This document shows positions 8,018 through 32,903 of a stretch of 32,903 nt of DNA, in pieces (the first letter of the stretch is position 1; every line of letters begins with the position of its first letter). The translations under genes and the position numbers were made by a program. The notes beneath the pieces were generated by a model. The model had not been told where the DNA came from and searched no databases. It saw only the letters and a program-made list of their open reading frames with translations. Location: the NCBI GenBank assembly GCA_020443325.1, contig JAGRIK010000165.1, positions 1-32,903 on the forward strand. Reading direction: 5' to 3'. The stretch is from Halioglobus sp. GTDB taxonomy: Bacteria; Pseudomonadota; Gammaproteobacteria; Pseudomonadales; Halieaceae.

Positions 8018-8140
8018 GGACGTAATTCCCCGGTTAATTGTGGTTTTGCCCGAACATCTTCGAGTCGTTGTGACTGCGTTGGCTCCGGTTGAACTATGGC
8101 AGCAGAACCTGGCGCAGCAGTGGCGGGCAAAGCAATATAT

Positions 8141-8152
8141 CTTATCTATAAG
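8141..8152. promoter_or_regulatory. Putative TetR-type operator, copy 1
   Basis: CTTATCTATAAG is an inverted repeat with 5-bp arms (CTTAT/ATAAG). It lies 124 bases before the acyl-CoA ligase start. On the minus strand it is followed by TATATT (8139-8134), and TTTAAT (8162-8157) lies 17 bases upstream of that hexamer. The palindrome would therefore sit inside the spacer of a candidate ligase promoter, a usual place for repressor binding. The same palindrome recurs at 8265, 16060 and 32508. Confidence 0.6.
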
Positions 8153-8256
8153 TTTAATTAAAGGGACAGATGGCGACAGCCCAGTGCGCGGGAGAGCTCA
8201 CGCACCCGACCCGACGCTACGCAAGCCTTGACTAATCCACCGGTCTTATATAGTTT

Positions 8257-8276
8257 TATAATTTCTTATATATAAG
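8257..8276 (+). promoter_or_regulatory. Candidate -10 element plus putative operator, copy 2, for the VOC operon
   Basis: A perfect TATAAT lies at 8257-8262, and the full palindrome CTTATATATAAG at 8265-8276 covers the expected transcription start. The VOC start codon is 30 bases further on. The -35 is unclear: TTGACT at 8228-8233 is too far from this TATAAT (23 bases) and is 15 bases from an alternative TATAGT at 8249. A repressor bound at the palindrome would block either promoter. Confidence 0.55.
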
Positions 8277-8306
8277 TTATTTAATCTCCCACACTCCGAG
8301 GTCACC

Positions 8307-8729
8307 ATGTCACAGCTTAACCAGGCCCACTTTGGCTTCACCAAACTACTTGTGCAGGATCTGGAAGCGTCGGCAAAGTTCTATACTGAAGTCTGCGGGC
8401 TGACCGAACTGGCGCGGGTGGATGCCGAGATCGCCAGCCGCCCCATTTCCGAGATCATGTTCAATCCGACCGGTGCGGGTGCCGCCATGTTTGTCCTGCT
8501 GTCGTTTACCGACACCGGTAACAAGGGTGGTCACAGCGTGATCGTGGGCTTCCAGACCGAGGATATCGCCGCGTTCGTGCAGCGCGCCGTGGACGCGGGC
8601 GGCAGTATTGTCGACCCTGTAAAGGACAATCCGGATCACGGTGTGCGCGTTGGCTTCGTCAGCGACCCGGAAGGAAACCTGATCGAGGTCGTGCAGGTGC
8701 TGGAGCAACTTGAAATATACAAACACTGA
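8307..8729 (+). CDS. VOC-superfamily protein (glyoxalase/dioxygenase fold)
   Basis: The 140-residue protein has the paired beta-alpha-beta-beta-beta halves of the vicinal-oxygen-chelate fold. The first half contains LLVQDLEASAKFYTEVCGL and the second EDIAAFVQRAVDAGG, ending in FVSDPEGNLIEVVQ. The 'DPEGNLIEV' strand with Glu is typical for a metal ligand at the end of VOC domains, and the first-strand His may be His8 in QAHFGF. Such single-domain proteins include lyases, isomerases, epimerases and small dioxygenases, so the reaction is not settled. It is first in a plus-strand operon ahead of an esterase-type hydrolase and an MDR oxidoreductase, just downstream of an operator copy. GAGGT precedes the ATG. 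Confidence 0.85.
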   Translation: MSQLNQAHFGFTKLLVQDLEASAKFYTEVCGLTELARVDAEIASRPISEIMFNPTGAGAAMFVLLSFTDTGNKGGHSVIVGFQTEDIAAFVQRAVDAGGSIVDPVKDNPDHGVRVGFVSDPEGNLIEVVQVLEQLEIYKH

Positions 8730-8853
8730 GCACCGAATTCCGGTTGTGCTGGATAGCCACTTTCGAGATCACCACTTGACGACTGCTGCACCGAACTGAC
8801 ACCCGTTACCACTCGCACTACAGGTGCGTTACAACCTGAGAGAATCCTGCACC

Positions 8854-9843
8854 ATGGCCTATGACATAGACGACAACGGCACAGTAGACCTCGGCGGCAA
8901 CGATGTGCCCGTGCCGGGCACTATCAGCCCCGAAGCGCAGAGTTACATCGCCCAGGACTTGTGGGGTACAGACACCTCCGCCGCGCCGATGGCGATGTGG
9001 GAGACACGCCAGGTCACTGCACTGGCCTTCGATGCGCTGAACCAGCAGGCGCAGGCCATGTTCCCGGTTACTATTGAGGAGACAAAGATCGACGGTGTGC
9101 GCTGCCACCGTGTATCTCCCCTTCAGGTGACGGCGGAAAATCGCGATAAAGTGCTGATCAATTTTCACGGCGGCGGTTTCGTGATCGGTTCTGGTAGCCT
9201 GGTAGAGGCCATTCCCATTGCCCACCTCACCGGCATTGAGGTGATCGCGGTGGACTACCGCCTGGCACCGGAACACCCCTACCCCGCAGCCGTGGACGAT
9301 GCCATTGCGGTCTACCGCGACACGCTGAAAACCCGCTCCCCTGCCGACATCGCCATCTATGGCAGTTCAGCGGGCGGATTTATTACCGGGCAGTTGCTGG
9401 CGCGAGCCGGCAAAGAGGGGCTGCCCATGCCCGCCTGTGCCGGTGTGTTTTCCGCCGGCGGCGACCTGATAGACTTCGGCGATACCAGTCACATATTCAC
9501 CCTGAACGGTTTCTTCGGCCACCTGCTGTTTCCACTGGATCATGAACTGAGTGAAGTGCGCGCCTACCTCGGTGGTGCCGATCCGCGCGACCCGCTGATC
9601 TCCCCGGTGCTTTCCGACTTGTCCGGGTTTCCGCCGGTGTTACTCATGTCCGGTACCCGCGATGCGATACTCAGCGCCACCTCGAATTTTCACCGGGCGC
9701 TGCGCCGGGCCGGCGTCGACGCCGATCTCATGGTATTCGACGCGATGCCGCACACCCACTGGTACGCCCTGCATCTGCCTGAGACCAACGAGGCCCTGGG
9801 TGTCATGGCGGAATTCTTCACACGCCATTTATGTCCTGAATAG
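8854..9843 (+). CDS. HSL-type alpha/beta hydrolase (carboxylesterase)
   Basis: The protein has the hormone-sensitive-lipase family marks. The oxyanion motif HGGG lies at 105-108, the nucleophile elbow GSSAG has Ser172, a late MSGTRDA supplies the Asp, and MPHTHWY supplies the His. It should hydrolyse a carboxylic ester or lactone in the cytoplasm. The frame is open from a GTG at 8824, but ATG 8854 fits better because it has a GAGA-type ribosome-binding site upstream and gives a family-like N-terminus of 329 residues in total. It is followed 11 bases later by the MDR gene. In a cluster that contains a Baeyer-Villiger monooxygenase, this is the natural candidate for opening the ester or lactone product; that role is inferred from context. 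Confidence 0.9.
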   Translation: MAYDIDDNGTVDLGGNDVPVPGTISPEAQSYIAQDLWGTDTSAAPMAMWETRQVTALAFDALNQQAQAMFPVTIEETKIDGVRCHRVSPLQVTAENRDKVLINFHGGGFVIGSGSLVEAIPIAHLTGIEVIAVDYRLAPEHPYPAAVDDAIAVYRDTLKTRSPADIAIYGSSAGGFITGQLLARAGKEGLPMPACAGVFSAGGDLIDFGDTSHIFTLNGFFGHLLFPLDHELSEVRAYLGGADPRDPLISPVLSDLSGFPPVLLMSGTRDAILSATSNFHRALRRAGVDADLMVFDAMPHTHWYALHLPETNEALGVMAEFFTRHLCPE

Positions 9844-9854
9844 AGGAACCACCC

Positions 9855-10838
9855 ATGTACGCGATGATTATTGAAGAAACCGGGGGCCCTGAGGTGCTCA
9901 GGTACAGCGAGTTGCCGACGCCCGTGCCGGGGGCAGCAGACGTGCTAGTCCAAATAGCCTATGCCGGCGTCAATCCGGCGGACTGGAAGAACCGCCAGGG
10001 CCTGTTGGCTGCGTATCGTCCGTATTTTTTCCCGTACATCATCGGTTTTGATGCGGCCGGCGTGGTCGCCGCTGTCGGTGACGATGTGACCGCCTTCAAA
10101 CCCGGCGATCGCGTGTTCACGCCTACCAATCACGGCCAGGGCGGACAGGGGAGCTACGCGCAGTACACGCTGGCCAACCAGGACCGGGTGGCACACATCC
10201 CGGATGGCCTGAGTTTCGCCCAGGCCGCTGCGCTGCCTGTCGCCGCGCTCACAGCCTGGCAGGCAGTATTTGATCGCGGCGGCGTGCACGCCAACCAGAA
10301 GGTGATGATCCACGGTGGCTCGGGCGGCCTTGGCGGATTCGCCGTGCAGTTCGCGCGCTGGGCGGGAGCGCAAGTGGCCGCCACGTGCAGCACAGTGAAT
10401 GTCGAGTACCTGCAGGGGCTCGGTGTGGAACGCGTGATCGATTATCGCGAAGAGGACATCACTCAAGCCGTCAATGCCTGGGCGCCTGATGGCCTGGATT
10501 ACTTGCTGGACGCAGTCGGCGTCAGCACGCTGCCCAACGCGCTGGACCTGGTCCGCACGGGAGGCACGCTGGTCAGCATCCCCACCCTGGTCGACGACGG
10601 TGATTTCGAAGCGGCGGCGACAGCGGCGCAGGCGAAGAACGTGATGCGGGTGTTTTCTACCATGGATGATGTGGGATGTTCAGCGACATTGGGAAAGATT
10701 GCTGATCTACTTGGCAGTGGCGATATTTGCCTGCCACCGATTCGGGAGTTTCCGCTGGCGGAGGCTGCCGAGGCGCACCGGGTGATTCAGTCGGGGCATA
10801 ATCGGGGTAAGCTGGTCTTGAAGGTCGCGGAGCTTTGA
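9855..10838 (+). CDS. MDR-superfamily quinone-oxidoreductase-like protein (zinc-free)
   Basis: The 327-residue protein belongs to the medium-chain dehydrogenase/reductase superfamily, quinone oxidoreductase branch. It has the GroES-like N-terminal half (ILVQIAYAGVNPADW-type segment, then GFDAAGVV) and the nucleotide-binding loop HGGSGGLGGFAVQFA at 153-167. The cysteine and histidine zinc ligands of alcohol dehydrogenases are absent, which fits NADPH-dependent reduction of enones or quinones. It follows the hydrolase gene by 11 bases with AGAGGAA before ATG, so it is in the same operon. It may reduce an unsaturated ketone before or after ring oxidation. Substrate unknown. Confidence 0.9.
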   Translation: MYAMIIEETGGPEVLRYSELPTPVPGAADVLVQIAYAGVNPADWKNRQGLLAAYRPYFFPYIIGFDAAGVVAAVGDDVTAFKPGDRVFTPTNHGQGGQGSYAQYTLANQDRVAHIPDGLSFAQAAALPVAALTAWQAVFDRGGVHANQKVMIHGGSGGLGGFAVQFARWAGAQVAATCSTVNVEYLQGLGVERVIDYREEDITQAVNAWAPDGLDYLLDAVGVSTLPNALDLVRTGGTLVSIPTLVDDGDFEAAATAAQAKNVMRVFSTMDDVGCSATLGKIADLLGSGDICLPPIREFPLAEAAEAHRVIQSGHNRGKLVLKVAEL

Positions 10839-11025
10839 GCCTACACACAGGCCAGTACTGGCGCTTTCCTGTTCCTCCTCCGGCCGGCCACCTACGGCCC
10901 ACGCCGCCCGCGTTGAAGCGGGAGCCTCCTGTCTCCGAACGCTTTAATTGAAGAACGCTTGTCGCATTATCCTTCAGTCCATCGTTCATGTTTTCAAACC
11001 GGGCCATATCTTTACCATTCATCAC

Positions 11026-11063
11026 TTGTGAGCTAATTTACTTATATATATAATATTTGTAAG
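11026..11063 (+). promoter_or_regulatory. Promoter of the BVMO operon with a degenerate operator
   Basis: TTGTGA (11026-11031) and a perfect TATAAT (11049-11054) are 17 bases apart, a strong sigma70 match. The stretch 11041-11063 starts with CTTATATATATAA and ends with TTGTAAG. It therefore has the same CTTA and TAAG ends as the operators elsewhere, but with wider spacing, and it covers the -10 and the expected start near 11061. The expected start makes GTG 11069 an unlikely translation start and favours ATG 11114. Confidence 0.6.
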
Positions 11064-11113
11064 TTTTTGTGGCCGACCAGCCCCATTCAACACCCCAACC
11101 GTGGATAAACACT

Positions 11114-13096
11114 ATGACGCAGCCGGTTTCCGCAATCACCCCGATTACCGCAGTATTGCCTATCAAGGATCACGACCGACTCAGGGCCGCCCTAGCGGTG
11201 AGCGAGGCGGCGCCCTTGTTAATGGTCTATACCCACTTCTCGCGCGACGAGGCTTTTCTCGCACGTGTTGCCCCGTTCATCAGCTCCATTTTCGATCCAC
11301 AGAAGCAGGTGCCGGCAGACCTGGTTGCGGAGTTGCATGAGCGCGTGTTTGATCTGCTGACGCAATCGCCGCCACCGGCGGATATTGCGCCGGACGATGC
11401 CCTGCTGCAAAAAATGCTCAGTGCGGCGGTCGCGGAACCGGTGGGGGAAGAATTCATTCCCATGCTGCGGGAGCAGATGGGCTTCAATCCACCGGAGAAG
11501 CGCAGCGCGCGCGAAGGGCGGGACGCACCGGCGGCGGATTTCAAGGTGCTGGTGATCGGCGCTGGCCTGACCGGGTTGTTGGCGGCAATCAAATTGCAGG
11601 AGGCGGGTTACAGCTTCGAGGTCATCGAGAAAAATCACGACATCGGCGGCACATGGCTGGAAAACACTTACCCGGGTGTCGCGGTCGATACGCCGAGCCA
11701 TTTCTATTCTTACTCGTTTGAGCTGAATCCCAACTGGTCGCACTACACACCCAACGGGCCAGAATTCCAGCGCTATCTGCTGGGCATTACGGAGAAATAC
11801 AAGCTACGAAGCAATATCGTATTCGATACGCAGGTGACAGAGTGCCGTTTTGACGAGGTGCGCGATTGCTGGCAAGTCACAGTGCAAAGCGCATCCGGTT
11901 CGCGGGTGATTGCCGCCAACGCGGTGATTAACGCCCACGGCCCGCTAAACCGCTGGCGGTATCCGGACATTCCAGGCCTGCGGGAATTTGGCGGAACGCT
12001 GATGCACACGGCGGCGTGGGACCATTCGATCGATCTGCGCGGCAAGCGCGTCGCCCTGCTGGGCACCGGCGCCAGCGGCGTGCAGGTGGGTAACGCGATG
12101 GCGGCTCAGGTGGAACATCTAACGGTGCTGCAGCGCTCCCGGCACTGGCTGATGCCGAATTACTATATAGAAGTACCCGAACCGGTGCGCTGGGCGCAGC
12201 AGCATATTCCGCACTATGCGCAGTGGATGCGATTTCGCGCTTACTGGTTCGCGGCGGACGGACTGTTCGAGAATATCCGCATCGATCCGGACTGGGCGCA
12301 CCCTGAGCGCTCGATCTCAGCGTTAAATGACGGCGTGCGCGATTACTGCCTGCAGAACTACCAGGCCAAGCTGGCGGACCGGCCGGACTTACTGGAAAAA
12401 CTGCTGCCGGATTACCCGGTATTCGGCAAGCGCATCGTGATGGATATCAACTGGCTCGAAAACCTGTGTCGCGACAATGTCACGCTGGAGGTTACCGGCA
12501 TCGACCACGTGGATTGCGACGCGATCGTCCTTGCGGATGGCCGCCGGGTAGAGGTAGACGTCATCGTGTGCGCTACAGGCTTTGACACGGCGAACATGGT
12601 CGGCACCCTGGAGGTGATTGGCCGCGACGGGCGCAACCTGCGCGATGAGTGGCAGGACGATCCGCGCGCTTACCTCGGCGTTGCCGTACCCGGTTATCCC
12701 AACTACTTCCTCACAGTGGGACCGAACAGCGCACCCAACCACGCCGGCGGGCAGAACATCACCTCGGAATCACAGATTCACTACATCATGGAGTGTCTCG
12801 AATTGCTGCGCAGAGAAGATGCAGCCACTCTCGAGCCAACAGCGGCCGCCTGCGACCGCTTCAACGCGGAAGTGGACGCTGCGCTGCAGGGGCTGATCTG
12901 GTTACACCCCAGCGCTCCGCAGAGCTATTATAAAAACGCACGCGGACGCAATATCATGTCCTGTCCCTATCGGTTAGTGGATTACTGGTGGATGACCCGC
13001 GCTCCCGAAGTGGCAGATTACACGCTGGCCGGTAAATGCGATGCAGCGATGGGCGAAAAGCCAGACGCACCACGGGCTGTAACATCCGGAACATGA
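11114..13096 (+). CDS. Type I Baeyer-Villiger monooxygenase, HAPMO-like, with N-terminal extension
   Basis: The flavoprotein inserts oxygen next to a ketone carbonyl using NADPH and O2. It has two Rossmann motifs, GAGLTG (149-154, FAD) and GTGASG (317-322, NADPH). Between them lie GGTWLENTYPG (178-188) and the family fingerprint F-x-G-x3-H-x3-W-D at 292-303 (Phe292, Gly294, His298, Trp302, Asp303). About 140 residues precede the FAD motif. This extension is not found in cyclohexanone monooxygenases but is typical of 4-hydroxyacetophenone monooxygenase-like enzymes, as is the 660-residue length. The frame is open from GTG 11069, but the promoter position favours ATG 11114. An SDR gene follows after 64 bases. 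The family is clear; the ketone is not. Confidence 0.93.
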   Translation: MTQPVSAITPITAVLPIKDHDRLRAALAVSEAAPLLMVYTHFSRDEAFLARVAPFISSIFDPQKQVPADLVAELHERVFDLLTQSPPPADIAPDDALLQKMLSAAVAEPVGEEFIPMLREQMGFNPPEKRSAREGRDAPAADFKVLVIGAGLTGLLAAIKLQEAGYSFEVIEKNHDIGGTWLENTYPGVAVDTPSHFYSYSFELNPNWSHYTPNGPEFQRYLLGITEKYKLRSNIVFDTQVTECRFDEVRDCWQVTVQSASGSRVIAANAVINAHGPLNRWRYPDIPGLREFGGTLMHTAAWDHSIDLRGKRVALLGTGASGVQVGNAMAAQVEHLTVLQRSRHWLMPNYYIEVPEPVRWAQQHIPHYAQWMRFRAYWFAADGLFENIRIDPDWAHPERSISALNDGVRDYCLQNYQAKLADRPDLLEKLLPDYPVFGKRIVMDINWLENLCRDNVTLEVTGIDHVDCDAIVLADGRRVEVDVIVCATGFDTANMVGTLEVIGRDGRNLRDEWQDDPRAYLGVAVPGYPNYFLTVGPNSAPNHAGGQNITSESQIHYIMECLELLRREDAATLEPTAAACDRFNAEVDAALQGLIWLHPSAPQSYYKNARGRNIMSCPYRLVDYWWMTRAPEVADYTLAGKCDAAMGEKPDAPRAVTSGT

Positions 13097-13160
13097 CACC
13101 GCGGATTACTCCACTTGATTCTCGCAACCTCAAATACTCGCCAACAGGGGGTACACACCC

Positions 13161-14024
13161 ATGAATGAAGCACTGGCTAAACTGACGGGGGGCGTCGCGG
13201 TAATCACCGGTGCCGGTTCCGGCATTGGCGAGGGACTCGCGCGCGAGGCCGCAGCAGCAGGCATGAAAGTCGTGCTGGCGGACATTGCCCAGGACCGTAT
13301 CGACGCACTGGCCGCAGACATTAAACGAGACGGCGGTGAGGCACTGCCCGTGGTGACGGACGTGAGCGACCCGCAGGCGCTGGAAGCGCTGGCAGACAGG
13401 GTCTTCGATACCTTCGGCAGCGTACGACTGCTGATCAACAATGCGGGCATCGAAACCCTGGGGCTCACCTGGGAGATCCCGGCAGCAACCTGGGAGAAAA
13501 CCCTCGATATCAATATTCATGGCGTCATCCACGGCGTCCGCGCGTTCGCGCCGCGCATGATCGACGCGGGCGAACAGGCCTTTATCGCCAACACGTCCTC
13601 CATCGGTGCGCTGGGTATCATGCCGGTGCAAACCTCCTACATCCTCAGCAAGCACGCCGTGCTCGCCTTCAGTGAGTGCTTGTACCTGGAAATGCAACTC
13701 AAGCAGCTCCCCATCAGCGTATCGGCCATCCTGCCGGGGCCGGTCGCCACCAGAATCTTTACTGACTCTGCCGGCACCGACGACGAGGTCAGCCGTTTCC
13801 ACCGGAAAGTCATGGAGGACATGCTGGCTGACAACGGCATGACCGGCCGGGAGGCGGCAAAAATCATCCTGCCGCAGATCGCCGCCGGCGAGTTCTGGGT
13901 ATCCACCCACCCCGAGATGACCGGAGAATACGCTGCCAACCGTGCCAGGCACCTGACCGCACTCTCGGCGCCGGCCCTGCCGCCGGAGGTGCTGGCCTCT
14001 CTGGGTGCTGCCAACACAAACTGA
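13161..14024 (+). CDS. Classical SDR dehydrogenase
   Basis: The 287-residue protein has TGAGSGIG at 16-23, NNAG at 93-96, catalytic Ser147, Tyr160 and Lys164 (YILSK). The Asp41 after beta-2 (LADI) suggests NAD rather than NADP. The C-terminal tail is longer than in FabG-like enzymes and lacks the 'DGG' end, as in SDRs acting on larger substrates. It is placed between the Baeyer-Villiger monooxygenase and the triple Dabb-like protein with short gaps, so it probably shares their operon and oxidises an alcohol to the ketone used by the monooxygenase or one released after hydrolysis. GGGGG lies 10 bases before ATG. Confidence 0.92.
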   Translation: MNEALAKLTGGVAVITGAGSGIGEGLAREAAAAGMKVVLADIAQDRIDALAADIKRDGGEALPVVTDVSDPQALEALADRVFDTFGSVRLLINNAGIETLGLTWEIPAATWEKTLDINIHGVIHGVRAFAPRMIDAGEQAFIANTSSIGALGIMPVQTSYILSKHAVLAFSECLYLEMQLKQLPISVSAILPGPVATRIFTDSAGTDDEVSRFHRKVMEDMLADNGMTGREAAKIILPQIAAGEFWVSTHPEMTGEYAANRARHLTALSAPALPPEVLASLGAANTN

Positions 14025-14069
14025 CTGCCAGGTCACAGGAAACGGACACGCCCACGGGAAGGAGAAACA

Positions 14070-15116
14070 ATGATAGAAGTTCAGGATAGAATCGAGATCG
14101 CAGGTGATAACCTGGACGGACTGCTTCAGCTGTTTCACCGCGACTATATCGCGCAGGCGGCACAGCGGGGCCTGCGGTTCGTCGAGCACCGCATCTCACC
14201 GCCGGTTAAACTTCAAAGCGCGCCCGTCACGCTCTGGCTGCGCTGGCAAGTGGAAGACACGCAAGCCTGGTGGGCGATGCGCGCCCAGTCGGGCGACCCG
14301 GGCGTCGCACGATTCTGGGCGCAGGTCGATACGCTGTGTGTTGCGCGTGAGCGAGAGTACCTGTGTGACAGCGTACCCGGCGAGTTACCCGGAGCGGAGG
14401 ACGTCAGCCGCTTTCAGGTCACGACTCACAGCTACCGCGAGACAGCGCAACTGTCCATCAAAGAGGATGTAGACGCCGAACAGCGCACAGTGCTGGAAGC
14501 GATCCTGCGCGATGCAGCGGCGGAATTGCCCGGCGTGGAACGCGTCGAGCTCGCGGCGAACTACGCACCGGAGTACGCCGTGGGACACTACACCTGGGAT
14601 ATCCTCTACCCGGACCGCGATACGGCCGAAGCGGCTCAGCGCTCAGCCTACTGGACCAACAGCGTCGCAGCGGCACTTGAGCGCTACTGTAGTGCCTGCC
14701 ACGCTCTCCGTCTCGACACCGTGAATGCCGGTGTGCGCCGCAAAGACCTGGCCAATGGCGTCAAGCGCACCGCGTTTTTTCGCCTGCTTCCCGGCACAGG
14801 CGCTGATACGGCGCAGCGTTTCGAGCAGGATCTACTGGAAATGGCCCGGCAGATTCCCGATATCCTGAACTGGCGCCTCAGTCGAGCGCAAGTGCTGCCC
14901 TGGGATACTGCGGACTGTGCGCCCTGGACGTATGTCTGGGAGCAGGAATTCGAAAGCCTGGACGGACTGCTGGGTCCGTACATGGCGCACCCGCACCACT
15001 GGGCTCATGTCGACCGCTGGTTTGATCCGGAGTCGGGCAAACAGGCCGTCGATGTGAACCTGTCCCACGCCTTCAGCGCGCTGGAAAAGAGCATTATCGG
15101 TGCTGAATCAAACTAA
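14070..15116 (+). CDS. Protein of three Dabb-like ferredoxin-fold repeats, function unknown
   Basis: The 348-residue protein reads as three consecutive units of about 100 residues. The third (about 228-321) is closest to the stress-responsive alpha/beta-barrel (Dabb) family: a first strand VKRTAFFRLLPG, a helix FEQDLLEMARQIPDIL, a strand YVWEQEFESLDGLL and the hallmark end YMAHPHHWAHVDRWF. The second (about 112-220) has the same order: SIKEDVDAEQRTVLEAIL, LPGVERVELAANY, then a DILYPDRDTAEAA segment. The first (1-100) is more diverged and Trp-rich. Dabb proteins include the polyketide cyclase of olivetolic acid synthesis and many uncharacterised proteins. No signal peptide is present. An AAGGAG site precedes the ATG, and the gene sits between two SDR genes of the BVMO operon. 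A catalytic or product-binding role in the same pathway is plausible but unproven. Confidence 0.75.
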   Translation: MIEVQDRIEIAGDNLDGLLQLFHRDYIAQAAQRGLRFVEHRISPPVKLQSAPVTLWLRWQVEDTQAWWAMRAQSGDPGVARFWAQVDTLCVAREREYLCDSVPGELPGAEDVSRFQVTTHSYRETAQLSIKEDVDAEQRTVLEAILRDAAAELPGVERVELAANYAPEYAVGHYTWDILYPDRDTAEAAQRSAYWTNSVAAALERYCSACHALRLDTVNAGVRRKDLANGVKRTAFFRLLPGTGADTAQRFEQDLLEMARQIPDILNWRLSRAQVLPWDTADCAPWTYVWEQEFESLDGLLGPYMAHPHHWAHVDRWFDPESGKQAVDVNLSHAFSALEKSIIGAESN

Positions 15117-15142
15117 CCGCAATTCGAGGCAGGGATAACCGC

Positions 15143-16012: not shown

Positions 16013-16059
16013 GTCGCGCCACTATTTTCCGGATCAGTGAGAATACGAACACCACATAC

Positions 16060-16090
16060 CTTATCGATAAGATATCCATACCTGTATACT
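16060..16090 (+). promoter_or_regulatory. Putative autoregulatory operator and promoter of the tetR gene
   Basis: CTTATCGATAAG (16060-16071) is a perfect 12-bp palindrome. TATACT at 16085-16090 is a good -10, and the weak -35 (TTATCG, 16061-16066, 18 bases upstream) lies inside the palindrome, so binding would compete with RNA polymerase. Autorepression by the adjacent TetR protein is the simplest reading. Confidence 0.6.
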
Positions 16091-16140
16091 GTCGAACGCG
16101 GCCACGCGACACAGCACGCCGCCTTCCCCAACCGTAACCA

Positions 16141-16875: not shown

Positions 16876-16914
16876 TCACAGTACGCAAGAGCAACTATTT
16901 AAGAGGACTGCAAG

Positions 16915-18000: not shown

Positions 18001-18013
18001 CGGCTCCAGTTCA

Positions 18014-22048: not shown

Positions 22049-22064
22049 AATGCAATTCTCCTTG

Positions 22065-24556: not shown

Positions 24557-24566
24557 GGCTTTTTCC

Positions 24567-26201
24567 TCATGCGTCCTGGTCGACCGGCGTGGATACCGCG
24601 TAAAAGTCTTCACTCGTGGCGATCTGTTGCAGCAGGTCGCGCAGACGATAACCCGAGGCGGCAAAGTGCGCCGTCAGAGACTCGAGCAACGTGCGCTGCA
24701 CGGAGGCGTCCTGCGGCCCGCCAGCATATCGGTACACCGTATCCACCAGGCATTCCGGTACACGCCGATGCTCGCTCAACGCCTGCCCGAGTCCTTTCGC
24801 GCCGGCAAATTTCCGGCCGTCCAGTTCACCACTGACATCGATCACATGACCGTTCTCGCGCGTGCGGTACATACCGACCCCGTCAAACTGCTCCAGCGTG
24901 AGACCAATCGGGTCCATCAGGTGATGACAGCCGGCGCAGACAGGTTCACTGCGGTGCCGCGTGAGCCGTTCGCGCGCGGTCGCTTCCACCGCAAACCCCT
25001 CCTCCAGCGTGAAGTCCACATCCGCCGGCGGCGGCGGCACGGTCTGGCAGAGAAACGTCTCGCGCACGAACAGGCCGCGCAGCGTAGGGGAACTGCTGCC
25101 CGCATGCGCGTGCAACGACAACAGGCTGGCCTGGCTCAGCAGGCCGCCGCGCGCAGAGGCCTCGCTGAAGCGATAAGCGTCCCACCCCTGCGGTGACGTC
25201 ACCGGCACGGTGTACACCATGCCCAGCTGCCGCTCCATTGGCATCGATTCCCGCGTAAACACGTCGCGGTAGTCAGCGTTTTCCACCAGGAGGTGTTGTA
25301 TCAGTGTCTGTAAAGTCTGCTCCTGCATCGCCTGTGCCACCGTGCTGGTGAACACCGGATACAGTTCGACATCCTTGGACAGCTCCCCGAACGTATCGAA
25401 ACGCAACATATCCGCAAACAGACTGCGCATGCCGGTCTCCAACCTCGGGGATGCCAGCAGCCGCGCAACCTGGCGACGCAGGCCCTCTGGATCGTGCAGT
25501 TCCCCACGCTGCGCTGCGACCAGCAATTGGGCGTCAGGTGTAGTGTTCCAGAGGAAGTAGCTCAAGCGCGCCGCCTTGCTGTAGGCGTTAAGGCGCGATT
25601 GCCCCAGGGACTGTGGGTCCGGCTCAACCGACTCGATGCGGAACAGGAATTCAGGTGACGTCAGCAGGCTGGCGAGTGCGTATTGCAGGCCTTCTTGGAC
25701 TGTGCCACCCACCGCGATCACCTGCGCGACAACATCCAGCCGCGACGCCAGTTCGTCTTCCGTCAGTGGCCGGCGAAACAGCTTTTCACCGTAGCCTGCG
25801 AGGAAGAACTGGATGCAGGGATCGTGGTGCGGGCTGTCCCCGTTCGGTTCACAGCTCAGGTATTGGCCCCGCAACTGCTCGCCGAGCACCTGCTCGGCAA
25901 TGCCGCGTCCCATCTGGTCGTATTGCTCGAAGCCCGAAGGCGACACACTGGCCCACGCGCTGCCTGCCGCGAGTAGACGATCGCGCCGGTAATCGGGTTC
26001 GAAGCGGCCGTAGATACGCACGCTGTCACCAAAAATATCCGCGATACTTTGTCGGTACTGGGATTGCGTTAGCCGGTACATCGCAACGATGGCGTCCCTC
26101 GCCTGCGCTTGTTGCGTCGCCGGCACCGCCGCGGGCGTGCTGGCACCCCACAGGACGAGGCACAGGAGCAGCAGTATCCGGTGGTAGTTGACATCAGGCA
26201 T
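24567..26201 (-). CDS. DUF1592/DUF1588-group protein with one heme c motif
   Basis: The 544-residue protein has a Sec signal peptide (about 1-24) and then the planctomycete-type string of domains. These are a DUF1587-like start (YRLTQSQYRQSIADIFG, about 42-58), a DUF1595-like part (FLAGYGEKLFRRPLTEDEL), DUF1592 (YSKAARLSYFLWNTTPDAQL), DUF1588 (GGLLSQASLLSLHAHAGSSS) and a C-terminal DUF1585-like segment. CAGCH at 422-426, within the DUF1588 part, can bind one covalent heme, so the protein is probably a periplasmic redox partner. It lacks a separate N-terminal cytochrome domain. The next gene downstream encodes DUF1552, the standard partner. The enzyme reaction of this group is not established; pairing here with a sugar-dehydrogenase fusion suggests electron transfer during substrate oxidation. 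Confidence 0.9.
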   Translation of the reverse strand: MPDVNYHRILLLLCLVLWGASTPAAVPATQQAQARDAIVAMYRLTQSQYRQSIADIFGDSVRIYGRFEPDYRRDRLLAAGSAWASVSPSGFEQYDQMGRGIAEQVLGEQLRGQYLSCEPNGDSPHHDPCIQFFLAGYGEKLFRRPLTEDELASRLDVVAQVIAVGGTVQEGLQYALASLLTSPEFLFRIESVEPDPQSLGQSRLNAYSKAARLSYFLWNTTPDAQLLVAAQRGELHDPEGLRRQVARLLASPRLETGMRSLFADMLRFDTFGELSKDVELYPVFTSTVAQAMQEQTLQTLIQHLLVENADYRDVFTRESMPMERQLGMVYTVPVTSPQGWDAYRFSEASARGGLLSQASLLSLHAHAGSSSPTLRGLFVRETFLCQTVPPPPADVDFTLEEGFAVEATARERLTRHRSEPVCAGCHHLMDPIGLTLEQFDGVGMYRTRENGHVIDVSGELDGRKFAGAKGLGQALSEHRRVPECLVDTVYRYAGGPQDASVQRTLLESLTAHFAASGYRLRDLLQQIATSEDFYAVSTPVDQDA

Positions 26202-26278
26202 TGTCGTAAGTCCTTACATATATCATGACGCATGCCCTCCGATACCGTAGTGGCAATATCCTTCTGGCAGCCACGCGC

Positions 26279-29200
26279 CTAGTCCCGCGAAAATTCCAGG
26301 CTAACGATGGCGTACTGAATATCGCCATCTGCATCCGTATCCGGGTCTGCCGGCGCGCCAATATACAGATCATGCACGCCATCTACCTGGCTGACATCCA
26401 GACTCACCGTCGCCGACTCCAGACTGGGAATCAATGGTATATCGACTTTCTGTGAAGCGATCGCCGGGCTGTCCTTGCTGTCGATCCTCAGCTCCAGCAT
26501 GCCTCCGCTGGTGATCGGTCTCACACCGCTTGCCATCACAAGGATGCGCTGTATTCCGGTAAGGTCGATGCCTTTTAGCATGCCGTAACTGAACGTACTG
26601 CCACTCGTTGGAGTATGCACCAGTGCGACGTCAAAGCCGTCTTGAACGCCCACAGTGGTTACCCCGTCGGTTTTGTCGAAGTCTTTGGCCAGCACGATGG
26701 GCGATCTCAACAATAATGTAGACTGACCCTGCAGGGCGGGTGCCTGCGCTGTGCCTTTATCTGTATAGCGGGCGTTGAAATAGTAGTCTCCGAGGTAGAA
26801 CTTTCCGAGATCCACGGCGACCCCCTTATCAAAGGCGACGTGGATATAGTCATCGTGGTGCTCGTCAAAGGTCAGCACGCCGCGCAATCCAAGTCCTCCA
26901 ATTTGATTGTCCTGCGTTCCGTGCAATGACATGACGAAGGCGACGATTTGCGCCAGCTCCGCTTCCGAGAGATTGGGATGTACCGGCATCACGTGATTAC
27001 CACCCCATTTGCCGCTGGCGCCCTCACTGATCGAGTGACGCAGGATCGCTGCGGCATCCTCGTCCTGTGCATAGCGCTCGGCGATTTGTGTGAAGGAAGG
27101 CCCGATGGAGGCGCTGTCCACGCCGTGACAAGCGTTGCAATCGCTACCGCGTGTGACCAGGTCACGCCCCGCCAGCACCGGGTCGACGCTTTCGGTCGCC
27201 AGCACTTTCGCCAGGTCTTCACCGCCAGCGACGTAACCAAACTTGATGGTGACATCGCTCGGCACTATGGCGCCGTTCGCAGTGTCGCCATCTTCCTGAT
27301 CGTTGATCTGGACTGCGAAACTAACGGGTTGGTCTTCCCAGTAGAAGCTGCGATTGCCGTCAGTCGAGACCGTGACCACCGGCGGCTCGTTGCCGACGAC
27401 GAAGCGCAGCATCGCCGTGGCCGTCTGACCACCGGCATCGGTCACAGTCAATTGCACGAAATGCTCGCCGGCTTCATCCAGCGTAATTGGTTGTACTTCC
27501 TGCTCGCCGATCACAGCACCCGGCCGGCCGTTTGCTACCCATTGCCACAAGTAGTTCAGTTCAGATTTCGGGCCGTCCCGATCATAGGATTCCGATGCAT
27601 CCAGTACCGTCGCCAGCGGCGCCGCACCGATGGTCGCGGTAGTCGTTGCCACCGCAATGGGGGGCGGATTTTCACCGCCGTAGTATTCAATGCGGCTTAG
27701 GTAGGAATCGACATTGCCGGAAAACCAGTCGTTGCCATACTCGACGACATACAGCGCGCCGTCGGGCCCGAACGCCATGTCCAACGGCGCACTCAAGGGT
27801 TGGTCAATTATGGGTACGATGGTTTCGGGCCGCCCCTGCGCATCGGTAGTCACCACCATCAGCCAGCGCCGAATGAAATCTGAAATGATGAGCTTGCCAT
27901 CGTAATACGGTGGAAACTTGATCGCGCTGTCGCTGTTAGCCTCGTCGGAGTAATAGATAGGCGCGACCAGCGCATTGCGACCGCCACTGGACAGTTCAAA
28001 GAACTTGTCGCTCTCCTCGTAGGGATAGAACAGCCAGGCCGGTTGGGCCGGGGGTAGCACTTTCATCCCGCGATTATTGCGCGAGCGATTCTCCGGCGCC
28101 GCTACGTTCGCCTTGTCGAGGGCTTTGTCCAGTGCATAGTCGTAGTAGGCGTAGGGTTCATTGTCCGCTATGACGAACGGCCAGCCGAAGTTCCCCGCCT
28201 CATCGGCAATATTGATTTCATCGTACCCGATGGGGCCGCGATCATCCGCTGCCCTCGCGTCGGGCCCAACCTCGCCCCAGTAGAGGCGCTGCGTGCGACT
28301 GTCGAACGCCATGGTGTAGGGGTTGCGCAGACCCATGACGTATATCTCGGGGCGCCCCTGTGTCACCGATGCGAACAGGTTGCCCTGCGGGATGTCGTAG
28401 TAGCGCCCCTCGGCATCGGGCTCTGCCCTGGGCCGGATTCGCAAAATCTTGCCGCGAAGGTCCTGGGTATTGCCAGCAGAACGCGCCGCGTCCCGCTGAA
28501 TGTGACCTGGTCTGTCGTCGATGTAGGAGGCGTCATCGGCCTGGGTGTCATCGCCGGTCGTCAGGAACAGGTTGCCCTTCGCATCGAACTGCATGTCACC
28601 GCCTGTGTGGGAGGATTCGTGTCCGGGCGTACCGTCGGCCGGCATGGTCAGCAAGACCTGCTCAGAGGCGGCATCGAAAGTGTCACCGTGCAATTTGAAG
28701 CGGGAGAGCACGTGTTCGCCAGCATCGCCTTTGCTGATGGTTCGAAATAAATAGATCCAGCGGTTGCTGGAAAAATCCGGATCGAACACGAGCCCCAGCA
28801 AGCCGTACTCAAAGTCGGAATTGACATCCTCGAACGTGTGGACGGTGACCGAATCCCGCTGGTCAAAGTCGTAGCGCTGTAGCTTGCCCCGGCGTTCCAC
28901 GTAGTAGAGATCTCCCTCCGGGCTGAAGGCCAGCTTGAGCGGCTCGTTCAGGTTGGAATCCAGCACCGTGCGGCTGAAGCGCCACGCCTGTGGTCGCGAC
29001 TTGCTGTAATCGAGCGGGGCGCCATCGCCCATCGCATAAGCCATACCGCCACGCAGAATCTCCAGGAAATATGGGTTGGCAAAGGCGGCTTCGCTGTGTC
29101 CGAGCGCCGTGTAAAAACTGCGGCCGCCGTCGAAGGGGCGGTACCACGCCACCGGGTGTTCCTCCCCGGCCCCCATCGTGGCGCCGGTGTAACTGCTTTC

Positions 29201-29800
29201 GTCGACGGTTAACAGCACCTGAATGCCGTCGGACAACCGTTGGAAGTCGTACCACTCTTCCGGCATCTGCCAGGTCTGGGGCAACGATAGCGTCGCCGGG
29301 TGCGTGTTGTCGCGAACCGTCAGCTTGCCGACCTGATCGCTGTTCTCGGGGTGTGCCGCGAATACACCCCCGACCAAACGCTGGAACCAGGGCCAGTAGG
29401 TGCCGTCCTCGACCTGCTTCCACTCGGTGTCGGCCGCCGCGTGGATACCGACGAAGCCGCCGCCCGCCTGAATATAGCGTTCGAACGCGACCTGCTGTTC
29501 CAGATCGAGGACGTCGCCGGTCGTATTGAGAAAAATAACCGCCTGGAAAGCCGGCAGAGTCTCGTCATTGAAAACTCTCGCGTCTTCGCTGGCGACCACA
29601 TTGAATTTCTGCTCGGCACCCAGCTCTGTGATCGCCGCTACTCCAGCCGCGATACTCTGGTGGCGGTACTCGACAGTCTTGCTGAACACCAGCACCTTGC
29701 GCCCGTAGTCGGGTTCGGGGCGGGATTGCCAGAAGATATAAATCGCAGCGAACAGCACCGCAAGCAACAGCATGAGAAGGGTAGTCTGTCGACCGGACAT
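26279..29800 (-). CDS. Five-part fusion: ThuA, sugar dehydrogenase beta-propeller, PKD, cytochrome c, C-terminal beta-sandwich
   Basis: The 1173-residue protein has a transmembrane anchor (about 7-24). It is followed by a ThuA domain (about 33-265; VLVFSKTVEYRHQSI, GGGFVGIHAAAD, EEWYDF, FYTALGH) and a glucose/sorbosone-dehydrogenase-type beta-propeller (about 280-720; LAFSPEGDLYYVERRGKL, GLLGLVFDPDF, HTGGDMQFDAKGNLFLTTGD, MGLRNPYTMAFD, LDMAFGPDGALYVVEYG). A PKD-like domain (about 730-815) and a cytochrome c (CNACH at 888-892, likely Met938 ligand) come next, then a C-terminal carbohydrate-binding-like beta-sandwich (about 1010-1173). The layout allows sugar oxidation at the propeller, perhaps with PQQ, and electron transfer to the fused heme in the periplasm. 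GTG 29809 also fits the frame, but GGAG eight bases before ATG 29800 decides the start. It heads the downstream part of the minus-strand operon. Confidence 0.92.
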   Translation of the reverse strand: MSGRQTTLLMLLLAVLFAAIYIFWQSRPEPDYGRKVLVFSKTVEYRHQSIAAGVAAITELGAEQKFNVVASEDARVFNDETLPAFQAVIFLNTTGDVLDLEQQVAFERYIQAGGGFVGIHAAADTEWKQVEDGTYWPWFQRLVGGVFAAHPENSDQVGKLTVRDNTHPATLSLPQTWQMPEEWYDFQRLSDGIQVLLTVDESSYTGATMGAGEEHPVAWYRPFDGGRSFYTALGHSEAAFANPYFLEILRGGMAYAMGDGAPLDYSKSRPQAWRFSRTVLDSNLNEPLKLAFSPEGDLYYVERRGKLQRYDFDQRDSVTVHTFEDVNSDFEYGLLGLVFDPDFSSNRWIYLFRTISKGDAGEHVLSRFKLHGDTFDAASEQVLLTMPADGTPGHESSHTGGDMQFDAKGNLFLTTGDDTQADDASYIDDRPGHIQRDAARSAGNTQDLRGKILRIRPRAEPDAEGRYYDIPQGNLFASVTQGRPEIYVMGLRNPYTMAFDSRTQRLYWGEVGPDARAADDRGPIGYDEINIADEAGNFGWPFVIADNEPYAYYDYALDKALDKANVAAPENRSRNNRGMKVLPPAQPAWLFYPYEESDKFFELSSGGRNALVAPIYYSDEANSDSAIKFPPYYDGKLIISDFIRRWLMVVTTDAQGRPETIVPIIDQPLSAPLDMAFGPDGALYVVEYGNDWFSGNVDSYLSRIEYYGGENPPPIAVATTTATIGAAPLATVLDASESYDRDGPKSELNYLWQWVANGRPGAVIGEQEVQPITLDEAGEHFVQLTVTDAGGQTATAMLRFVVGNEPPVVTVSTDGNRSFYWEDQPVSFAVQINDQEDGDTANGAIVPSDVTIKFGYVAGGEDLAKVLATESVDPVLAGRDLVTRGSDCNACHGVDSASIGPSFTQIAERYAQDEDAAAILRHSISEGASGKWGGNHVMPVHPNLSEAELAQIVAFVMSLHGTQDNQIGGLGLRGVLTFDEHHDDYIHVAFDKGVAVDLGKFYLGDYYFNARYTDKGTAQAPALQGQSTLLLRSPIVLAKDFDKTDGVTTVGVQDGFDVALVHTPTSGSTFSYGMLKGIDLTGIQRILVMASGVRPITSGGMLELRIDSKDSPAIASQKVDIPLIPSLESATVSLDVSQVDGVHDLYIGAPADPDTDADGDIQYAIVSLEFSRD

Positions 29801-29846
29801 GGTGATCACTCCAGATATCTAGAGACTGGCTATTGCGTTCTAAATG

Positions 29847-29874
29847 AAAAAAGGCGCCGCTCCAGGAGCGGCGC
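29847..29874 (-). terminator. Rho-independent terminator after the TonB receptor gene
   Basis: The arms GCGCCGCTCC (29854-29863) and GGAGCGGCGC (29865-29874) form a stem of about 9 bp with a very short loop. On the minus strand it is followed by CTTTTTTC (A tract 29847-29852). It lies 38 bases after the receptor stop and about 47 bases before the ATG of the fusion gene. The remaining leader is too short for a full separate promoter unless it overlaps the hairpin. The terminator therefore may be partial and set a high receptor to low enzyme ratio. Confidence 0.85.
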
Positions 29875-29912
29875 AAAAATTCCAACGCGGGAAGAACCCG
29901 GATATGCCTGTC

Positions 29913-32354
29913 TCAGCCCTCCCCGAAACTGTAGCGCAGCGTAACTCCGACCTCGCGCTCGGCCACATAGCTCACCCCATAGAAGCCGGGTTCGAAAGCA
30001 CCGAATGCAGTGCCGGGCTCCCCCTGGAATAACTGGGTATCATCGTCCAGAACGTTTTTGCCCCACAGGGTAACAGTCCAGTCGCCGGCCTCGCTGCCAA
30101 TATCCAGATACAGGTTCAGGATCCCGTAGGCGTCCGCCTTGTAGCCGCGGCCATAATCATCCTGATCGCCGTAATAGTTGTACAGCATACGGGCGTTACC
30201 TCTTAACCCGAACACCGGGAAGGAGTAGGCGGACTGCACTGTCGACACCCAGGGTGGCACCGTGGAGATGGCGTAGTCAACGGTACAGAACAGCACTGAG
30301 TTCCCACCGAAATCGGCCGGCACCAGGTTACCGATATCGCCATTGTCTGGCCGGCCGTCGCTGTTGGTATCGCGGCACGGTACATCGGCATCATCGAATT
30401 TTCCGTCGGCGTAGGCTGTGGTCAACCGCACCCACCAGTCTTCGTTCACATCGAACGTGGCATCGAGTTCAAAGCCCTGCACGGTAGCATCACCGGGATA
30501 GGTAAACCCGCCAGATTGCAGTGTATTGCCCGCTCCCACATAGGGTACATCCTCAAAACGCGCGATGAAGTTACTGTAGTCCTGATAATAGACAGATGTA
30601 TTCACGCGAAGGCGGTTATCCAGCCACTCCGAGCGAAAACCCAGTTCGTAGGAGTCGGTCTCCTCGGGATCACCGGAAAGGAGTTCGACAGGTGTCAGAG
30701 GTGACGTGATGCCCACCGTGACCCCCGCGGGGCGCCATGAATGGGCATACGTGAAATAGGCCATCATGTCATCGGTGAAGTTGTAACGAAGCGAGGCATC
30801 ATAGACCCACTCATTGTGGTTATCCGACCCACCCTGGGTGAAGTCGCTGGCATCAATCTGCAGGTCGCAATAGCCCGGATAGGTTTCAGTACCGGTAAAT
30901 GGAGGCATCGGCAGCGCTCCATCGCCACACCACCCGAGCGGGGTGCCTGGCGGCTCGCCTGCTGCGCTCGCGATATCGATCGCGATTTGGCCAGCGCCAA
31001 TATTCAGCGTCTGGGAGCGCTTGACGTCGTCTTTAAGATACCGGGCACCGACGCTGAGATCGGCCTTGTCGGTGAGATGGAACACCACATTGCCGAAGAT
31101 TGCCTGATTCTTGAACTTCACAGGAATATCGCCGGTTACATCCAGGGAGTAGGCAAAATCGGGCGGGCCGATCGGATTGGGTGAAAGGGGCGAACCAAAC
31201 GCGCCCTCCAGCACATTGGGTTGCTGGAAGCTGCTCGATGTTTTGGTCTTCTGGTACCACAGCCCCACGAGATACTCGACGAATTGTTCTTCAGTGGATT
31301 CGAGGCGCAGTTCGAACGTCCTGTCCTCATACTTCGATTGCGTATATTGCGCAGCCGCGAAGTTGGTGACGGCGTTGGAGCCATCGCCTTCTGCAAAGGA
31401 ATCGAAGGAATTGTCCTGATACGCCGCGTCGAAGACAATCCTGAAAGCTTGCAACTCCCAGTTGAGATTCAGCGTCGTCAGTTCGGATTTCAGCGTCTGG
31501 GCCGGCTTGAACTCGTTTACTGCATGCCCTGCTCCACTGATGGACCGCCCGTTATAGCCGGCTCCGGGGCCTTCAACCTCGGTCAGGTTGTTGATATCCG
31601 CGCGCATCCACTGGTACGCCAGCGTGCCGTCGAGCGATTCCGTGGGCGCCCACAGCAGCGTGGAGCGCCAACTCTCCGTCTCCCGCTTGTCTTCATGGCT
31701 GCTGTTGACACTGCTCACCTGGTTTCCGTCATTGTCATCCACCACCCCGGCCACGCGCAGCGCGAGCCTTTCGGCGATCATCGGAACAGTCACACCACCC
31801 TGGAAGTTGGTTGCATCCTGATCGCTGCCGGAAGCCTGTAGCGTCCCGCCCCAGCCCTCGAGGTCCGGTGAGCGCGTGGTGACCGTTATGGCCCCTGCGG
31901 GAGACGGCCTGCCCCTCAGGGTACCCTGGGGCCCACGCAAAACCTCGACCTGGCCGATGTCGTACAGGGTCTGGAATGCATAGTTGGCATCCATCGGCGT
32001 ACCGTTCACGTATACATCCACCGCTGGCGAGGTCGAGGAATTGCTATCGAACCCCACTCCACGCAACTGGGCGACGGAACCGAAGGCGCCATTGTTCTCC
32101 AGAGACAGTCCCGGAGAGAGCTGGGACAGATCCTGGAATTCGAAAAGTTTGTATTCAGAAATATCCTTCCCGCTGATAGCGGTAATGGTCATCGGAACAT
32201 CCTGCAAGTTTTCGGCCCGCCTTTGCGCAGTTACGACCACCTCTTCCAGAACCATTTCCCTACCGGGAGCAGCCTCCTGACCAATCGCGAATCCACCATT
32301 TCCGACCGCCGCCGCACCTGCAAGGGCTACCAATGGATACTTTTTGTAGTTCAT
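29913..32354 (-). CDS. TonB-dependent outer-membrane receptor
   Basis: The 813-residue protein has a signal peptide (about 1-25), a TonB box in LEEVVVTAQRR near residue 36, a plug domain (QDVPMTITAISG; FQDLSQLSPGLSL; QVEVLRGPQGTLRG) and a long beta-barrel with alternating aromatic strands, ending in GVTLRYSFGEG. It should import a large or scarce compound across the outer membrane using TonB energy. The plug end reads GTLRGRPSPAGAITVTT, a variant of the common GTLFGRNT form; the type occurs in receptors of unknown specificity. It is the first gene of the minus-strand unit and carries an operator-like palindrome 154 bases upstream, so it is probably induced with the catabolic genes. A role in taking up the glycosylated substrate fits the neighbours. 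Confidence 0.93.
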   Translation of the reverse strand: MNYKKYPLVALAGAAAVGNGGFAIGQEAAPGREMVLEEVVVTAQRRAENLQDVPMTITAISGKDISEYKLFEFQDLSQLSPGLSLENNGAFGSVAQLRGVGFDSNSSTSPAVDVYVNGTPMDANYAFQTLYDIGQVEVLRGPQGTLRGRPSPAGAITVTTRSPDLEGWGGTLQASGSDQDATNFQGGVTVPMIAERLALRVAGVVDDNDGNQVSSVNSSHEDKRETESWRSTLLWAPTESLDGTLAYQWMRADINNLTEVEGPGAGYNGRSISGAGHAVNEFKPAQTLKSELTTLNLNWELQAFRIVFDAAYQDNSFDSFAEGDGSNAVTNFAAAQYTQSKYEDRTFELRLESTEEQFVEYLVGLWYQKTKTSSSFQQPNVLEGAFGSPLSPNPIGPPDFAYSLDVTGDIPVKFKNQAIFGNVVFHLTDKADLSVGARYLKDDVKRSQTLNIGAGQIAIDIASAAGEPPGTPLGWCGDGALPMPPFTGTETYPGYCDLQIDASDFTQGGSDNHNEWVYDASLRYNFTDDMMAYFTYAHSWRPAGVTVGITSPLTPVELLSGDPEETDSYELGFRSEWLDNRLRVNTSVYYQDYSNFIARFEDVPYVGAGNTLQSGGFTYPGDATVQGFELDATFDVNEDWWVRLTTAYADGKFDDADVPCRDTNSDGRPDNGDIGNLVPADFGGNSVLFCTVDYAISTVPPWVSTVQSAYSFPVFGLRGNARMLYNYYGDQDDYGRGYKADAYGILNLYLDIGSEAGDWTVTLWGKNVLDDDTQLFQGEPGTAFGAFEPGFYGVSYVAEREVGVTLRYSFGEG

Positions 32355-32903
32355 AGTGATTTACCTGCCTGCTTGTTAGCTGAATGCGTGCGATTCACGA
32401 TCCGATGGTGATTGGCCGATAGACACCTGACGTGGAGAATACGTTTCTGCGTCAATGTGTTCCCTGTACTGCAATTCGCATATATTCATAATTTATTTAC
32501 TACTTTTCTTATATGTAAGTAAACTAGTTTAAATCTCGCCTGCAGTCAAGAGTGCACGCACCCTCAATTGTATTCAGCTGAAATCCACCTGGCCGGGATT
32601 TCCATCCTCGCTTGTCGTGGATTTACCAAGATCGTAGTTGGGTTTCCGGGGCGCTGGAAACCAGGACTTCCGGCTCCAGCGGAGCAAGAATGCCCACTGC
32701 CAGGCTGGGTGGGCACCATGATTTGGCCGTAATGACGGCAACAAGGATCGTGAAAACGGTAAGTATCGGCAATTTTTCTGTGGTTCACAGGAATTTCCTG
32801 TCCGGGCTCGGAAGGGTGATCACAGTAATGTTGGCCACAGATTAATCACCTCAATAATGGTGATTTATCCTCGTTGCCAGTACATCGGCAATGATCTTTG
32901 CTA
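32355..32903. other. 549-base region upstream of the TonB receptor, no recognised gene
   Basis: The part nearest the receptor (32355-32530) is AT-rich and holds the operator-like site. The rest has GC-richer sequence with several short inverted repeats: CTGTG-GTT-CACAG at 32778-32790, GTGATCAC at 32816-32823 and AATCACC/GGTGATT at 32844-32865. A 49-codon minus-strand frame (32772-32623, TTG start) encodes a hydrophobic N-terminus, LPILTVFTILVAVITA, but has no clear ribosome-binding site. It may be a relic or chance. I see no convincing gene here; the true neighbour probably begins outside the window. Confidence 0.5.
32508..32519. promoter_or_regulatory. Putative TetR-type operator upstream of the TonB receptor
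   Basis: CTTATATGTAAG matches the CTTAT-N2-ATAAG palindrome with one mismatch in the right arm. It sits in an AT-rich stretch 154 bases before the receptor start, within a likely promoter zone, but no good -35/-10 pair could be fixed there. It links the receptor to the same regulator as the ligase, VOC and tetR promoters. Confidence 0.5.

Follow-up and report, generated by a model that had tools for sequence, protein, structure and literature searches.

A conserved palindrome very probably ties the uptake and breakdown genes of a Halioglobus cluster to one TetR-family switch

A gene cluster on a 32,903-nt stretch of DNA from Halioglobus sp. carries a palindrome, CTTATNNATAAG, in 3 exact copies and 1 copy with one mismatch, and encodes a TetR-family protein (positions 16141-16875). 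This stretch, the window, makes up the whole of contig G000:C92, which belongs to a draft assembly of 4,706,817 bases in 365 contigs that is about 90% complete. The same palindrome precedes several units of the cluster, is conserved in relatives, and co-occurs with tetR. We consider it highly probable that the palindrome is the operator of this TetR protein, which would repress the units for uptake, glycoside attack, and oxidation. Uptake and breakdown are thus very probably under joint control of a single TetR switch.

The original prediction listed four intergenic copies of a 12-bp palindrome. Their letters and coordinates match the sequence, and all four lie between open reading frames (ORFs). 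A fifth site, at 11035-11058 before the gene for a Baeyer-Villiger monooxygenase (BVMO), was absent from that list, and the 12-mer is the core of a longer element. The full motif, about AWWTWWCTTATNNATAAGWWAWWT, is a palindrome of roughly 24 bp in which A/T-rich flanks surround the core. The predicted operators, with their leave-one-genome-out scores, are the following:

8135 to 8158, predicted operator 1 (core CTTATCTATAAG, 8141-8152), before the divergent acyl-CoA ligase gene, score 37.8
8259 to 8282, predicted operator 2 (core CTTATATATAAG, 8265-8276), before the VOC gene, score 38.3
11035 to 11058, predicted operator 3, before the BVMO gene, score 32.7
16054 to 16077, predicted operator 4 (core CTTATCGATAAG, 16060-16071), before tetR, in the same position in genome G016, score 23.3
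32502 to 32525, predicted operator 5 (core CTTATATGTAAG, 32508-32519), before the leftward genes from the TonB-dependent receptor (TBDR) to GH106, score 28.2

Every transcription unit inferred from gene spacing in 5557-32354 has a site, and the genes left of 5314 have none. The exact pattern occurs 3 times in the window versus 0 times in 100 shuffles; with up to one mismatch, it occurs 4 times versus a shuffle mean of 0.20 and a largest count of 2 (100 shuffles). A scan of the whole assembly, the check proposed with the original prediction, finds the exact 12-mer at 3 places, all inside the window. With one mismatch allowed, 36 places match (4 in the window), versus 62 for a reversed control pattern. 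Because the control gives more matches, most off-window one-mismatch matches look like background. Eleven of the 32 such places were scored with the matrix described below, and none reached 14.

The motif recurs around the tetR gene of seven relatives, before genes of one shared set. Relatives within the Halieaceae, the family of the window, include Parahaliea mediterranea (G065), P. aestuarii (G031), Haliea sp. EAC94 (G033), and Haliea salexigens (G043); Halioglobus sp. NAT121 (G013), also in this family, has the genus label of the window. A weight matrix built from 22 sites of the seven relatives, with the window excluded, recovers all four listed sites and the fifth, scoring them between 22.1 and 37.7; across 100 simulated windows the score never exceeds 15.3. 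The site before the BVMO gene is also present in six relatives. When each genome is left out in turn, 53 sites reach the threshold of 20 in eight Halieaceae clusters (335 kb), and 44 of them are intergenic, where 8.1% of bases are intergenic. No site of at least 20 is found in 1.6 Mb of simulated DNA or in 12 comparison regions. Two or more genomes have a site before each of the following gene types: BVMO, VOC, ligase, TBDR, tetR, 2OG-like, esterase, GH106, and PSCyt. The tetR gene has its own site in the window, G016, G033, and G043, and weakly in G324.

The pattern TTATNNATAAG is concentrated: 25 of its 65 matches in the seven relatives fall within the 0.83% of DNA around tetR (both strands count, the pattern being palindromic). 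Outside the clusters, the exact 12-mer occurs in G011 (C199 and C311), G031 (C15), and G065 (C5), but only the copy at G031:C15, upstream of a 2OG-like gene, scores like an operator (23.8); the copies in G011 and G065 give no match of 14 or more. Among the 11-mer matches outside the clusters, those at G011:C149 and G011:C315 score 24.5 and up to 23.0 and may or may not belong to the regulon. Another, some 70 kb from the cluster of G033 (L080, G033:C17:126862), scores 32.1, lies near TBDR and SDR homologues, and is a possible further regulon member.

The motif follows tetR, not the enzyme genes. TetR orthologues (E <= 1e-35, the best 7 or 14 candidates per genome being scored) are found in 11 other genomes, at identities of 73% in G016, 57% in G299, 50% in G324, 45-54% in seven genomes, and 39% in G011. 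Among 369 genomes sampled from the class, an orthologue was seen in the window's own genome alone. Orthologues of the third SDR of the cluster (SDR3; E <= 1e-80) are present in 16 of 195 genomes. Six TetR-less genomes have SDR3 together with the Dabb-domain protein, the ligase, and the alcohol dehydrogenase (ADH), and five of the six also have SDR2; the fetched 20 kb contain no site in any of the six. A second cluster in G043, a second one in G031, and a cluster in G053 are also devoid of sites. A whole-genome search with a sequence model, R1, made from 42 of 48 listed sites (six were left out by hand), gives at least one hit (E <= 1) in 10 of 12 TetR-bearing genomes versus 2 of 30 without a TetR orthologue (Fisher p 2.6e-6). 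BVMO orthologues of at least 57% identity occur in 9 of the 12 TetR-bearing genomes, with none at E <= 1e-150 in 14 others searched. GH106 orthologues of at least 58% occur in 7 of the 12 and in none of the 14, among which G003 has a 35% match.

These data also bear on whether the palindromes are chance or AT-rich promoter sequence with no regulator behind them. AT-rich cores near promoters and one-mismatch matches scattered through the genome are what such an origin would give. The shuffles, the simulated DNA, and the TetR-less clusters, which yield no sites, led us to reject it, and sites are likewise lacking in the 19 kb that were fetched around another glycoside module of the own genome (G000:C274). 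We regard a chance origin as extremely improbable.

A more distant view is provided by family f9 (G299, G127, and G169), which is TetR-bearing, does not belong to the Halieaceae, and was kept out of both the matrix and R1. In G299, sites scoring 23.7 to 33.9 precede a TBDR gene, an SDR2-Dabb-SDR3-ADH run, and a 2OG-like gene paired with BVMO; an additional site, also scoring 33.9, lies on one of the contigs that carry these genes, and a site of 24.3 precedes a copy of SDR1 (82% identity). In G127, sites of 22.8 and 19.6 precede the TBDR and BVMO genes, and in G169 a site of 21.6 precedes a TBDR gene followed by GH106. A palindrome search around the tetR of G127 gave nothing alike. G127 and G169 were considered as counter-examples and dropped as such once other contigs proved to carry sites ahead of TBDR, BVMO, and the GH106 operon. 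Because the target genes of all three genomes lie off the tetR contig, simple linkage fails to explain the pattern. Altogether, a site of at least 19.6 precedes a regulon gene in 11 of the 12 TetR-bearing genomes; G324, a fourth outgroup genome, has a weak site only. The G127 record is titled as a Klebsiella pneumoniae metagenome-assembled genome, yet the genome groups in the order of the window, and the title looks wrong.

The protein encoded at 16141-16875 matches the TetR_N helix-turn-helix (HTH) family (Pfam PF00440) at 36.9 bits, with a cut-off of 24. Its structure model (pLDDT 81.6) has the all-helical fold of the family with a C-terminal ligand domain, and all 50 Foldseek matches listed are TetR-family structures. 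A Pfam scan of 22 window proteins, three of which have no match, assigns an HTH family to this protein alone. The segment VSMALYNYF, in the recognition-helix region, is conserved in 10 of the 12 orthologues; the tree also holds seven sister TetRs, which have PVMSLYNH there and come exclusively from genomes that give no R1 hit. Five of the six TetR-less genomes carry a sister TetR with the different recognition helix, and sister-like copies (30-32%) are present in G033 and G043 too.

These features help to weigh whether the operator, though real, belongs to a regulator encoded outside the cluster, with tetR as a co-inherited neighbour. The separation of tetR in G299 (C361) from its targets (C358, C464, and C569) would fit such an arrangement, as would G324, which carries tetR yet almost no sites. 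It is opposed by the lack of any other recognised HTH protein in the window, by the sites that precede tetR itself in four genomes and weakly in a fifth, and by the recognition segment that sets the orthologues apart from the sister TetRs. We judge it unlikely, and TetR of the cluster remains the preferred owner of the operator.

A separate operator for the sister clade was sought near enzyme clusters and not found there. In that clade (L027, L028, L031, and L033), a conserved AT-rich stretch like AATAATAGTTTCTATAATTATTTT lies near the start of the matched part and is possibly its own operator. In G053, which has no R1 hit, a tetR remnant with a stop (L096, G053:C23) is present, as if regulator and operators had been lost together.

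The 32 residues of TetR that precede the GRP motif (16141-16236) are basic and of low model confidence, with a disordered appearance. In five Halieaceae orthologues (L048, L050, L052, L054, and L056), the corresponding tails reach 83-101 residues in the longest reading frame and are Lys/Ala-rich, resembling histone H1. SimR, one of the structural relatives of this TetR, reportedly inserts a flexible N-terminal extension into the DNA minor groove (work cited in PMC5812520). By analogy, our guess is that the basic tail may act on the A/T-rich operator flanks in the minor groove.

The position of the sites relative to promoters was examined with 40 oriented sites, hand-picked as those with an assigned gene. 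Promoter-like hexamer pairs (at least 9 of 12) occur at 18 of the 40, versus 8.4% of shuffles. An upstream TTGAC in sense orientation accompanies 13 of 40 sites, versus 7.6% of shuffles, and an antisense one accompanies 0 of 40. In the BVMO promoters of three relatives, the site occupies the spacer after TTGACA, and at the VOC gene and a number of TBDR genes it either borders the -10 element or comes after it. Both layouts suit a repressor. In the window, a promoter-like TTGACT-17-TAGTTT (8 of 12) lies just upstream of operator 2 and also adjoins operator 5, where a general promoter scan of 32300-32903 did not list the pair. Operator 3 overlaps the sole sigma-70-like promoter reported in 8000-16200 (TTGTGA-17-TATAAT, 11026-11054). 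The claim of a cluster-wide regulon is thus supported on three sides: by operators conserved before orthologues in other species, by their absence from tetR-less clusters that share several enzyme genes, and by their placement inside or beside promoter-like hexamers.

Several observations weigh against this interpretation. G324, whose TetR orthologue is 50% identical, has a single weak site (16.7), directly before tetR, and no R1 hit. No site of at least 20 is found in 26 kb (G127) and 40 kb (G169) around tetR, and the sites of these two genomes (19.6 to 22.8) come from stretches that were fetched for a BVMO, GH106, or R1 match. The training sites of R1 came from 7 of the 12 TetR-bearing genomes; the held-out ones alone give 3 of 5 versus 2 of 30 (p 0.014). 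In the own genome, R1 scored 150 of 273 candidates, and the sites at 8259 and 11035 were not listed. On C10 of the TetR-less genome G019, a match reaches 31 points although it does not lie near regulon-type genes. Nine of the 53 leave-one-out sites lie inside ORFs drawn by a crude caller; at least three of them (G016 BVMO, G065 2OG-like, and G033 BVMO) are upstream of the homologous part of the gene, and these three placements arise because the caller drew the frames too long. The 53 sites are less independent than their count because of the close pairs G065/G031 and G033/G043. The promoter scan of 8000-16200 gave one promoter-like site versus a shuffle mean of 3.0, so the match at operator 3 alone proves nothing. 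An unlinked regulator that happens to have the same distribution as tetR would also account for the co-occurrence, and we assign it a small chance of being correct.

Also on this side are the hand selection of the oriented sites and the 22 of 40 that have no hexamer pair of 9 of 12. The latter, with the variable distances from site to start, would fit a TetR that binds but partly activates, or promoter-less sites that serve another role. The layouts seen where hexamers are clear, between them or just after the -10 element, argue for repression, and partial activation seems improbable to us. Repression of the cluster by its own TetR remains the reading that we favor.

The genes concerned, assigned from Pfam and NCBIfam, are these:

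5557 to 6327, minus strand, SDR, downstream of the acyl-CoA ligase gene
6437 to 8017, minus strand, acyl-CoA ligase
8307 to 8729, plus strand, VOC protein
8824 to 9843, plus strand, hormone-sensitive-lipase-type esterase
9855 to 10838, plus strand, zinc-type alcohol dehydrogenase/reductase family
11069 to 13096, plus strand, BVMO with an N-terminal extension of ~145 residues; the true start may be the ATG at 11114
13161 to 14024, plus strand, SDR
14070 to 15116, plus strand, Dabb-domain protein
15143 to 16012, plus strand, SDR
16141 to 16875, plus strand, tetR, the proposed cognate repressor, with TetR_N HTH and basic N-terminal tail
16915 to 18000, plus strand, 2OG-Fe(II)-oxygenase-like protein, no Pfam match
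18014 to 21175, minus strand, GH106-type rhamnosidase
21176 to 22384, minus strand, ThuA-domain protein, start probably internal
22065 to 23219, minus strand, uncharacterised protein, no Pfam match
23216 to 24664, minus strand, DUF1552/HXXSHH protein
24567 to 26201, minus strand, PSCyt/PSD-domain protein
26279 to 29809, minus strand, ThuA + GSDH + cytochrome c protein
29913 to 32354, minus strand, TBDR, first gene of the inferred leftward operon

The longest frames of the ThuA and uncharacterised ORFs (21176-23219) overlap by 320 bases, and translation probably begins at internal starts. In the protein encoded at 16915-18000, an HxD and a later H are invariant across 15 aligned sequences. The structure model of this protein weakly matches 2OG-Fe(II) oxygenases (best E 6e-5; TM by query length 0.26 to 0.38 among the 50 matches listed), so that, as modeled, it looks like a divergent member of that group. 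Several paralogues of it lie near the Haliea clusters. The own genome has a second PSCyt-DUF1552-GH106 module (L110, on the contig C274 mentioned above) that is 46-56% identical.

We infer binding of the palindrome by the 16141-16875 protein and repression rather than activation, together with the operon extents, an inducer, and a substrate class, in the following scheme. A TetR dimer would occupy the five operators and block sigma-70-type promoters, seated between -35 and -10 at the BVMO gene and right after -10 at the VOC and TBDR genes. It probably represses its own gene too. A substrate or intermediate of the pathway would release TetR and thereby switch on uptake through the TBDR, periplasmic glycoside attack (GH106, ThuA/GSDH, and DUF1552/PSCyt), and oxidation of the aglycone (BVMO, esterase, SDRs, ADH, acyl-CoA ligase, VOC, and the 2OG-oxygenase-like protein). 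The substrate is perhaps a rhamnosylated cyclic ketone natural product. More tentatively, this TetR lineage may govern a core regulon (receptor, BVMO, 2OG-like protein, and SDRs) across at least two families of the order, into which a separate periplasmic rhamnoside-attack operon was recruited in some species, so that glycosylated ketone natural products would be imported, deglycosylated, and ring-opened under one regulon, with the Lys/Ala-rich tail gripping the A/T-rich flanks in the minor groove. We present this scenario as possible but doubtful.

Through the operator, genes that have no assigned role (PSCyt/DUF1552, ThuA-GSDH, and the 2OG-oxygenase-like protein) are linked with a specific receptor and a BVMO pathway. 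The shared operator therefore predicts that all of them serve one substrate class. The matrix is ready for finding more members in Halieaceae and their relatives, and TetR offers a handle for inducer discovery. In the literature searched, no paper describing this regulon was found; control of this type is ordinary, and the system itself has no description there.

CamR of camphor pathways is an example of a local TetR-family catabolic repressor. Likened by description only, the Halioglobus cluster shares with CamR-type systems a TetR gene beside BVMO and catabolic genes, palindromic operators, and probable autoregulation. It differs in having five predicted operators on both strands, including those of a TonB receptor and a periplasmic glycoside module. 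TetR/ActR/SimR relatives (PDB 2opt, 2hxi, 2y2z, and 3zql) rank among the top matches to the cluster TetR by sequence or structure, at 17 to 25% identity among the structure matches listed. These relatives have roles in antibiotic export or synthesis, unlike the catabolic role proposed here, and the Lys/Ala-rich tails of 83-101 residues further distinguish the five Halieaceae orthologues from SimR-type relatives.

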